Shown one piece after another: positions 14,068 to 21,578 of a stretch of 35,252 nt of DNA (its first letter is position 1; every line of letters begins with the position of its first letter). The translations under genes and the position numbers were made by a program. The stretch is from positions 1-35,252 of IMG/VR virus record IMGVR_UViG_3300007512_000112. One strand, given 5' to 3'. The notes under the pieces are model-generated. The model was given only the letters and a program-made list of their open reading frames with translations. It ran no database searches and was not told the DNA's origin. This DNA is from a virus.

Positions 14068-14164
14068 TGCTAAATTGTGTGTTGTACCTTTTTCTCTCTC
14101 CCCTTCGGGTTGTAGGCGTGTGCTGACGCCTCGTTGTTCAATCTTTCGATCTACAGAAAAAGCA

Positions 14165-14287
14165 GTCCACGGAGGGATTCGAACCCTCGTCTTCGCCTAT
14201 CCCACAACTGATCAGGTTGCTCCACCATTATCTAGAATAGATGAAGTAAAGGAGGCGCTGTTCTAGACCTGACTAAACTACGCGGAC
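14165..14287 (-). tRNA. Aberrant tRNA-like gene with about 47 extra nt
   Basis: The 5' end (acceptor GTCCGCG, then D arm GTTT..GAAC) and the 3' end (T arm GAGGG-TTCGAAT-CCCTC, then acceptor CGTGGAC) fit one tRNA with a fully paired acceptor stem. Between them lie 70 nt where about 22 are expected. GCGCC and GGCG(A) could close an anticodon stem with a 56-nt loop instead of 7 nt. No anticodon can be assigned and CCA is not encoded, unlike the other three tRNAs here. It may be an interrupted tRNA, a tRNA mimic or a decayed gene. Confidence 0.5.
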
Positions 14288-20845: not shown

Positions 20846-20873
20846 ATTATGACATGGTTTGATAAATTGTCAA
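20846..20873 (-). promoter_or_regulatory. Sigma70-type promoter, leaderless class
   Basis: TTGACA, 13 bp, TGTCA; -10 CATAAT; 7 nt to the ATG at 20838. Confidence 0.8.
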
Positions 20874-21103
20874 GCTTCAATTATTCGTGGATTATCTTCA
20901 ATTTCAATATGATAGTAAGCATTCTTGATCCAGCCTCTTGTCTTAAAGAAATAATTCTCAGCAGTTACATAACATCTTTTATTTAATAAAGTTGAGTCTA
21001 CAGGTTTGGGTCTTTGTAGTTCATCCTTCTTTATTTGTGATATATATAAAAAATCGGCATCTTGCGGAGTTTCATATAATATTGCCTTATATTTAATGGA
21101 CAT
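20870..21103 (-). CDS. Hypothetical protein, related layout to 30273-30572, 77 aa
   Basis: Not recognised. The layout YKAILYETPQDADFLYISQIKKDE, then KRCYVTAENYFFKTRG, resembles the 30273-30572 product (TYKAVLYSY, then LRKNCFELATEIFKKRG), so they are probably distant paralogues. The ATG is 8 nt after the -10 element. Confidence 0.65.
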   Translation of the reverse strand: MSIKYKAILYETPQDADFLYISQIKKDELQRPKPVDSTLLNKRCYVTAENYFFKTRGWIKNAYYHIEIEDNPRIIEA

Positions 21104-21111
21104 GATTTAAT

Positions 21112-21139
21112 ATAATATTATGTATGTGTTATTTGTCAA
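21112..21139 (-). promoter_or_regulatory. Sigma70-type promoter, nearly leaderless
   Basis: TTGACA, 16 bp, TATTAT, then 8 nt to the ATG at 21103. Confidence 0.8.
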
Positions 21140-21140
21140 A

Positions 21141-21172
21141 TAAAAAAACCGCTCCCGATACGGAGGGGCGGT
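21141..21172 (-). terminator. Rho-independent terminator of the ncRNA
   Basis: ACCGC/GCGGT stem continued by TCC/GGA pairs, followed by TTTTTTTA in the transcript. It sits just upstream of the next promoter. Confidence 0.85.
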
Positions 21173-21437
21173 CTTTTAAAAAAAATGTGAGGGAGAGGAT
21201 TACTTATTTTACCTCTAACTTTTCGGGATAAACTAAAGTTCGTTTACCTACTTCGAGCCACCATCTCTTTCCTCATCCATTTGGACATCAGTCAAGCCTA
21301 GCGCACTTTATGGGGAGTATCAACCCATTGTTCGGTCACCCTCTTAATTCAGCCAGCCGTCGCTAACCAAAAGTTTTAAAATCTGTCAAAAATCAAGGTT
21401 ATTTGTTTTTGTTTGAGTTACCCTTCTCAATTATTAT
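21141..21437 (-). ncRNA. Candidate structured non-coding RNA, about 297 nt
   Basis: The unit has its own near-consensus promoter (21444-21472) and ends at a strong terminator (21141-21172), with no ORF longer than about 15 codons in the transcribed strand. Visible helices in the transcript include TAAAC/GTTTA (around 21229-21246), AGAGG/CCTCT (around 21190-21215) and TGGG/CCCA. Base composition is more balanced than the AT-rich surroundings. I do not recognise tmRNA, RNase P RNA or 6S RNA signatures. Confidence 0.7.
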
Positions 21438-21443
21438 ACGTAT

Positions 21444-21472
21444 ATAATACAATAAATTTGGTTATTTGTCAA
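21444..21472 (-). promoter_or_regulatory. Near-consensus sigma70 promoter of the ncRNA
   Basis: TTGACA, 17-bp spacer, TATTAT. It is the best promoter in the window by consensus. Confidence 0.85.
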
Positions 21473-21578
21473 GGACTTTTTGGTAAAAATCAGAAATTGT
21501 TTTTTGGTTACGCTCCATTATTGCTCCAATTACAATAAATGCAACTAATAGTACAATAATTACTTTTTCTTTAAACAT
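21462..21578 (-). CDS. Tiny membrane peptide, 38 aa
   Basis: Read directly from the sequence. One transmembrane helix (VIIVLLVAFIVIGAIM) is followed by a short polar tail. The start follows the stop of the lipoprotein gene by three bases. Its end overlaps the ncRNA promoter. Confidence 0.55.
   Translation of the reverse strand: MFKEKVIIVLLVAFIVIGAIMERNQKTISDFYQKVLDK

Follow-up and report, generated by a model that had tools for sequence, protein, structure and literature searches.

What does a phage make from a stretch of about 297 nt that lies between a promoter and a terminator and holds no conserved ORF? The stretch is found on the minus strand of a 35,252-base virus record from IMG/VR (the window, by which we mean the whole stretch of DNA analysed). 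The first-pass annotation had read it as a free-standing structured RNA gene of unknown class, with a near-consensus promoter, no ORF, a strong terminator and none of the hallmarks of tmRNA, RNase P RNA or 6S RNA. The unit is borne out by our analysis, and its free-standing character is supported by a related contig in which promoter, fold and terminator are all conserved, but "unknown" is not right: a match at a relaxed Rfam threshold, an independent covariance model and covariation all point to a divergent manA homologue. We put at roughly 0.6 the probability that the locus is a monocistronic, independently transcribed manA-like RNA gene of a T4-like phage, most likely acting in trans.

The features of the locus are collected in Table 1. 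Judged by the promoter sequence, transcription is predicted to start at ~21437 on the minus strand; a sigma-70-type polymerase starting there would stop at the terminator, near 21142, and release an RNA of ~297 nt. Six minus-strand promoters of the same quality occur in the window, compared with ~0.7 expected in shuffles, and that of the RNA is the only one of the six without an ORF of at least 40 codons within 150 nt. No ORF of at least 20 aa was found on the minus strand between 21104 and 21461.

Table 1. Features of the RNA locus and its surroundings, all on the minus strand; L074 is the related contig described in the text.
Feature	Positions	Remarks
Upstream 38-aa ORF with hydrophobic stretch	21462-21578	3´ end (last codons) overlaps the -35 box of the RNA
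Sigma-70-type promoter, TTGACA-17 nt-TATTAT	21444-21472	-35 box 21472-21467, -10 box 21449-21444; 11/12 consensus bases
5´ hairpin UUGAG-(8)-CUCAA, in the ~67-nt leader before the core	21413-21430	L074: stem identical, loop different
manA-like core RNA	21184-21369	RF01745 model positions 1-192; E 9.2e-12 in record search
P1 hairpin, 7 bp, loop GACG	21351-21368	Four substitutions vs L074, all pairing-preserving; GACG also in Rfam consensus
Closing helix, 5´ strand GAGGG	21339-21343	Pairs with CCCUC (21193-21189); manA consensus GGGAG/CUCCC
Two-pair helix (AC/GU), CGAACAA + UAAAG internal loop, P3 hairpin UGGG/CCCA	21305-21336	
P4 region, in place of the typical manA GGUGGU/ACCA three-hairpin domain	21259-21303	Helix 6: three pair-preserving changes vs L074
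P5 hairpin GGUAAAC/GUUUAUC, loop ACUUUAG	21227-21248	manA consensus aCUguAg
P6 hairpin AGAGG/CCUCU, loop UAAAAUAAGUAAU	21194-21216	Helix 11; manA consensus UAuacAguAAU
Closing helix, 3´ strand CCCUC	21189-21193	Helix 2: 100% paired across the alignment
Intrinsic terminator, U7 tail	21141-21177	Stem AAAAGACCGCCCC..GGGAGCGGUUUUUUU; -17.5 kcal/mol
Promoter of the next gene, TTGACA-16-TATTAT	21112-21139	ATG 8 nt past the -10 box
Next gene, 77-aa hypothetical protein	20870-21103	No Pfam match

The Rfam search that the first-pass annotation had proposed as a check was negative as a routine scan, with no match at the RNA locus, and positive at a relaxed threshold, where 21369-21184 aligns with the whole of manA (RF01745; E 5.3e-10). 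The score of 43.5 bits falls under the curated gathering cut-off of 55.2 bits, which explains why a standard scan misses the RNA; the related contig L074 and the Bifidobacterium copies L277 and L294 described below are under the cut-off too. A second covariance model (R1), built only from 22 marine cyanophage-type manA RNAs with the window left out, has the RNA as its sole match in the window (E 2.8e-7, model positions 1-197) and also recovers the L074 and Bifidobacterium RNAs, such that the likeness in sequence and structure is full-length under both models. No Rfam model for tmRNA, RNase P RNA, 6S RNA, GOLLD or ROOL matched the RNA, in agreement with the earlier reading for the first three, and weak matches to PGK, RNAI, trpB and other families at the locus were rejected (E 0.5 or worse). 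GOLLD and ROOL, stand-alone structured phage RNAs that are often near tRNA islands (PMC12286853), are the nearest comparison in terms of function, and in those terms only, being much larger and unrelated in sequence and fold. A direct search of the window DNA against named phages gave short weak matches only.

The core (21369-21184) would fold as a divergent manA RNA, with a GACG-loop hairpin followed by a closing helix round a multi-branch junction. Together with these elements, it shares with RF01745 the YGAAYAA motif, the UAA-RUG internal loop and a P6 with GGUA...AGUARUCC. In contrast, neither the window nor L074 matches the central domain of the model, with its three hairpins and their GGUGGU and ACCA loops. 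Because this domain is replaced, we call the RNA a divergent variant of the manA family and keep it outside RF01745. The window RNA also differs in its 67-nt 5´ extension, whose hairpin is absent from other manA RNAs, in its own terminator, and in having no role as leader of a metabolic gene. The folding energy of the whole RNA is no lower than that of shuffles (z -0.79) and was dropped as uninformative; the case for structure thus rests on homology and covariation. A minimum-energy fold of the window RNA made without any alignment includes P1, the closing helix, P3 and P6.

Covariation was assessed in an alignment of 20 related RNAs that is model-fitted and so leans towards structure; in it, 90.5% of pairing cells are paired, compared with 68.6% in shuffles and 38-45% in slid versions, the covariation score is 0.488 (0.165 in shuffles), and double changes occur in 41 of 54 pairs (31 in shuffles). 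Helices 2 (closing), 3 (two-pair) and 11 (the last hairpin, P6) are paired in all 20 sequences. In the closing helix, two double changes (GGGAG/CUCCC to GAGGG/CCCUC) come from the window and L074, and P6 carries compensatory changes across the 20 sequences. The closing helix and terminal hairpin expected of a manA RNA are therefore kept by covariation in the window RNA, and the examination of homologues that the first-pass annotation had called for does reveal compensatory changes in conserved helices.

The whole unit recurs in L074 (contig IMGVR 3300047669_002090), where RNA, promoter and terminator are found with 84% identity at the same place, flanked by homologues of the genes that neighbour the RNA in the window. 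The L074 promoter reads TTGACA-17-TATACT, and its terminator, of other sequence, folds equally well (-21.7 kcal/mol). Gaps of 1, 2 and 3 nt break the frame of the alignment; a conserved reading frame in relatives, which had been named as grounds for abandoning the RNA gene, was not seen. Since this comparison has two sequences, it was judged by a slide control and pair-by-pair changes rather than by a shuffle test: every change in P1, P4 and the two-pair helix leaves the pairing intact, the last having a C-G to U-A change. In the relatives L073 and L304 the RNA region is not present, and the window-type RNA occurs in two contigs only. A sister contig encodes a T4-kind DNA polymerase, UvsX and a DnaB-like helicase. 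Directly upstream of the L074 RNA is a 34-aa ORF (2111-2215) that resembles the 38-aa ORF of the window; it stops before the -35 box, whereas that of the window overlaps it.

Does the RNA control the gene behind it? Weinberg et al. (2010), who described manA as commonly located in potential 5´ UTRs, scored it as a possible riboswitch (PMC2864571), Rfam types it as cis-regulatory, and later cyanophage work retains that label (PMC9964418). Were the RNA to act in cis, as a riboswitch or attenuator, its manA-like aptamer would control the 21177-21141 terminator and hence expression of the 77-aa gene. The terminator does lie ~7 nt past the core, and the gene starts 38 nt past the terminator. However, folding predicts a terminator pair probability of ~1 within the full-length RNA, and neither in the window nor in L074 did any anti-terminator duplex outdo those of shuffled RNA; the alternative pairing on which such a switch would depend is thus not detectable in the window RNA. 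The 77-aa gene also has its own predicted promoter, so that a terminator and a separate promoter precede it in place of the 5´-leader arrangement of manA, and relatives of the RNA have tRNA genes on both sides or are followed by unrelated genes. We therefore consider control in cis unlikely. Given a terminator predicted to be constitutive and no detectable anti-terminator, we infer that the RNA is the gene product proper, a stable and structured molecule that would work in trans instead of switching the gene behind it.

A simple terminator scan did not list the 21177-21141 terminator. Promoters of the form TTGACA-16-NATNAT were observed on the minus strand at 21139-21103, 20873-20838, 14067-14032 and 12755-12720, each with an ATG 7-8 nt after the -10 box; with this spacing, the genes behind the four are predicted to give leaderless mRNAs.

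The organization of manA loci elsewhere bears on the same question. Pattern scans yielded 132 loci after removal of near-copies, 123 of them with enough upstream sequence. A promoter with at least 10 of 12 consensus bases and its -10 box 20-32 nt before the closing helix is present at 117 of the 123, compared with 3.7% of random windows, although the loci are mostly from marine cyanophages and mutually related, so that counts in this set do not represent independent events. With the -10 box so placed, the predicted 5´ end of the transcript is at the very beginning of P1. The remaining loci include manA copies adjoining tRNA genes. The -35 box is often embedded in the hairpin that terminates the gene before (for example GAGGGTGCTTGACACCCTCTTTTTTT-ATGCTATAAT), and a compact terminator-promoter fusion, GAGGGTG-CTTGA-CACCCTC-T7, was noted at L084, L116, L124, L292 and many cyanophage loci. 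Downstream, a run of at least five T within 14 nt is found at 51 of 132 loci (2.2% in the control), and a strict terminator precedes the next ORF at 19. The ORFs that come first downstream are diverse, with 40 groups; products tested were gp32, transaldolase, ThyX and a phosphomannomutase-like protein, a match to 2OG-Fe(II) oxygenase was weak and under the Pfam cut-off, and in phage P-TIM68 the gene after manA is on the opposite strand. What these loci have in common is most likely an RNA with its 5´ end at P1, not any downstream gene. Counting against a trans-acting RNA, most cyanophage loci have an ORF 5-243 nt downstream, gp32-like at 40 of 132, which is compatible with a 5´ leader. It is possible that cyanophage manA serves as a leader for gp32 or talC, and the family could do both.

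Several pattern matches were set aside. Those of the L077/L080/L113 group were rejected as chance, since their flanks differ, and L300 and L301 were rejected with no manA match. Most of 58 matches in bacterial genomes look like chance as well; L252, L277 and L285 fit the R1 model, and L237 fits the manA regular expression. L285, L237 and L252 are in contigs binned as Gammaproteobacteria, Euryarchaeota and Prochlorococcus, respectively; because their flanks resemble those of cyanophages, they may be phage contigs within genome bins. A near-invariant block unrelated to manA, GCCGCCGTTGTGATAAGACGGAGCTCGTGGTACCGG...CCGCCACTGTAATGCTC, is common to long contigs (L077, L080, L088, L113, L121 and others) and may be another structured RNA.

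Some copies are lodged among tRNA genes. That of Bifidobacterium callitrichidarum (L277) has tRNA-Lys on one side and tRNA-Arg on the other, within an array that includes tmRNA; in two megaplasmids (L294, L295) and a viral record (L303), manA follows tRNA-Phe. In the cyanophage contig L217, manA is separated by 1 and 3 nt from the tRNA genes on either side, and this copy has the typical three-hairpin GGUGGU/ACCA domain, unlike the window RNA. The copies on Bifidobacterium megaplasmids such as pMP7017 are more like ours, with 41.5-46.9 bits, a reduced central domain and no position as a 5´ leader, but they lie inside a tRNA/tmRNA array without a promoter of their own, whereas the nearest tRNA to the window RNA is 2.5 kb away. 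A transcriptome study of pMP7017 noted the adjacency of its manA element to a tRNA array and kept the cis-regulatory label (PMC10832533). Among 101 Bifidobacterium genomes, stricter filters left a manA match in that of L277 only, in keeping with travel on mobile elements. Elsewhere in the window, Rfam reports a tRNA over 124 nt (14164-14287, minus strand, 44 bits) that ARAGORN does not; it may be a tRNA interrupted by an insertion or intron.

The tRNA neighbourhood, a feature of the other elements and not of the window, suggests that the target of the RNA during infection may be the translation machinery or a host defence directed at tRNA, a guess against which we would still give odds. One form of trans action, overlapping with our preferred explanation, would have the RNA serve as a decoy or sponge for a host RNA-binding protein, a tRNA-directed nuclease or a defence sensor. 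Such a role would suit both the tRNA and tmRNA genes around the copies in mobile elements and a free-standing phage gene; set against this, no antisense match of at least 13 nt was found between the RNA and the rest of the window, and we rate a decoy as improbable.

Quite improbable, in our estimate, is that the RNA is a detached cassette that stabilizes the 5´ ends of phage mRNAs or enhances their translation. In its favour, transcripts predicted from the cyanophage promoters would have a stable hairpin at their very 5´ end, often a short way upstream of gp32 and transaldolase genes. Yet in the window no mRNA follows before the terminator, other copies are embedded between tRNA genes, and the strongly conserved loop sequences UGAAUAA and AGUAAUCC suggest specific recognition. 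Divergence from the family and confinement to two related contigs would also be expected of a decaying remnant without function, but this is most improbable given the pairing kept in P1, P4 and the two-pair helix and a terminator re-formed from different sequence in L074.

Within the open-access literature, a free-standing manA-like gene in a T4-like phage lineage, the sub-cut-off variant of the core and the promoter statistics of the family are new, although earlier reports may exist. A wider proposal, to which we give an even chance, is that manA is a family of trans-acting RNAs of phages and other mobile elements, expressed from their own promoters or out of tRNA arrays, of which the window would hold a divergent form, missed by standard Rfam scans, as a complete gene with promoter, RNA and terminator. 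Divergent relatives of manA are hidden by the Rfam cut-off. manA RNAs are widespread in cyanophages and, in the papers found from 2010 on, have been treated as riboswitch-like leaders. That one copy stands free between a promoter and a terminator of its own, and that others are lodged between tRNA genes in unrelated elements, argues that the RNA is the product, in which case it is what manA RNA binds, rather than a ligand, that should be sought.
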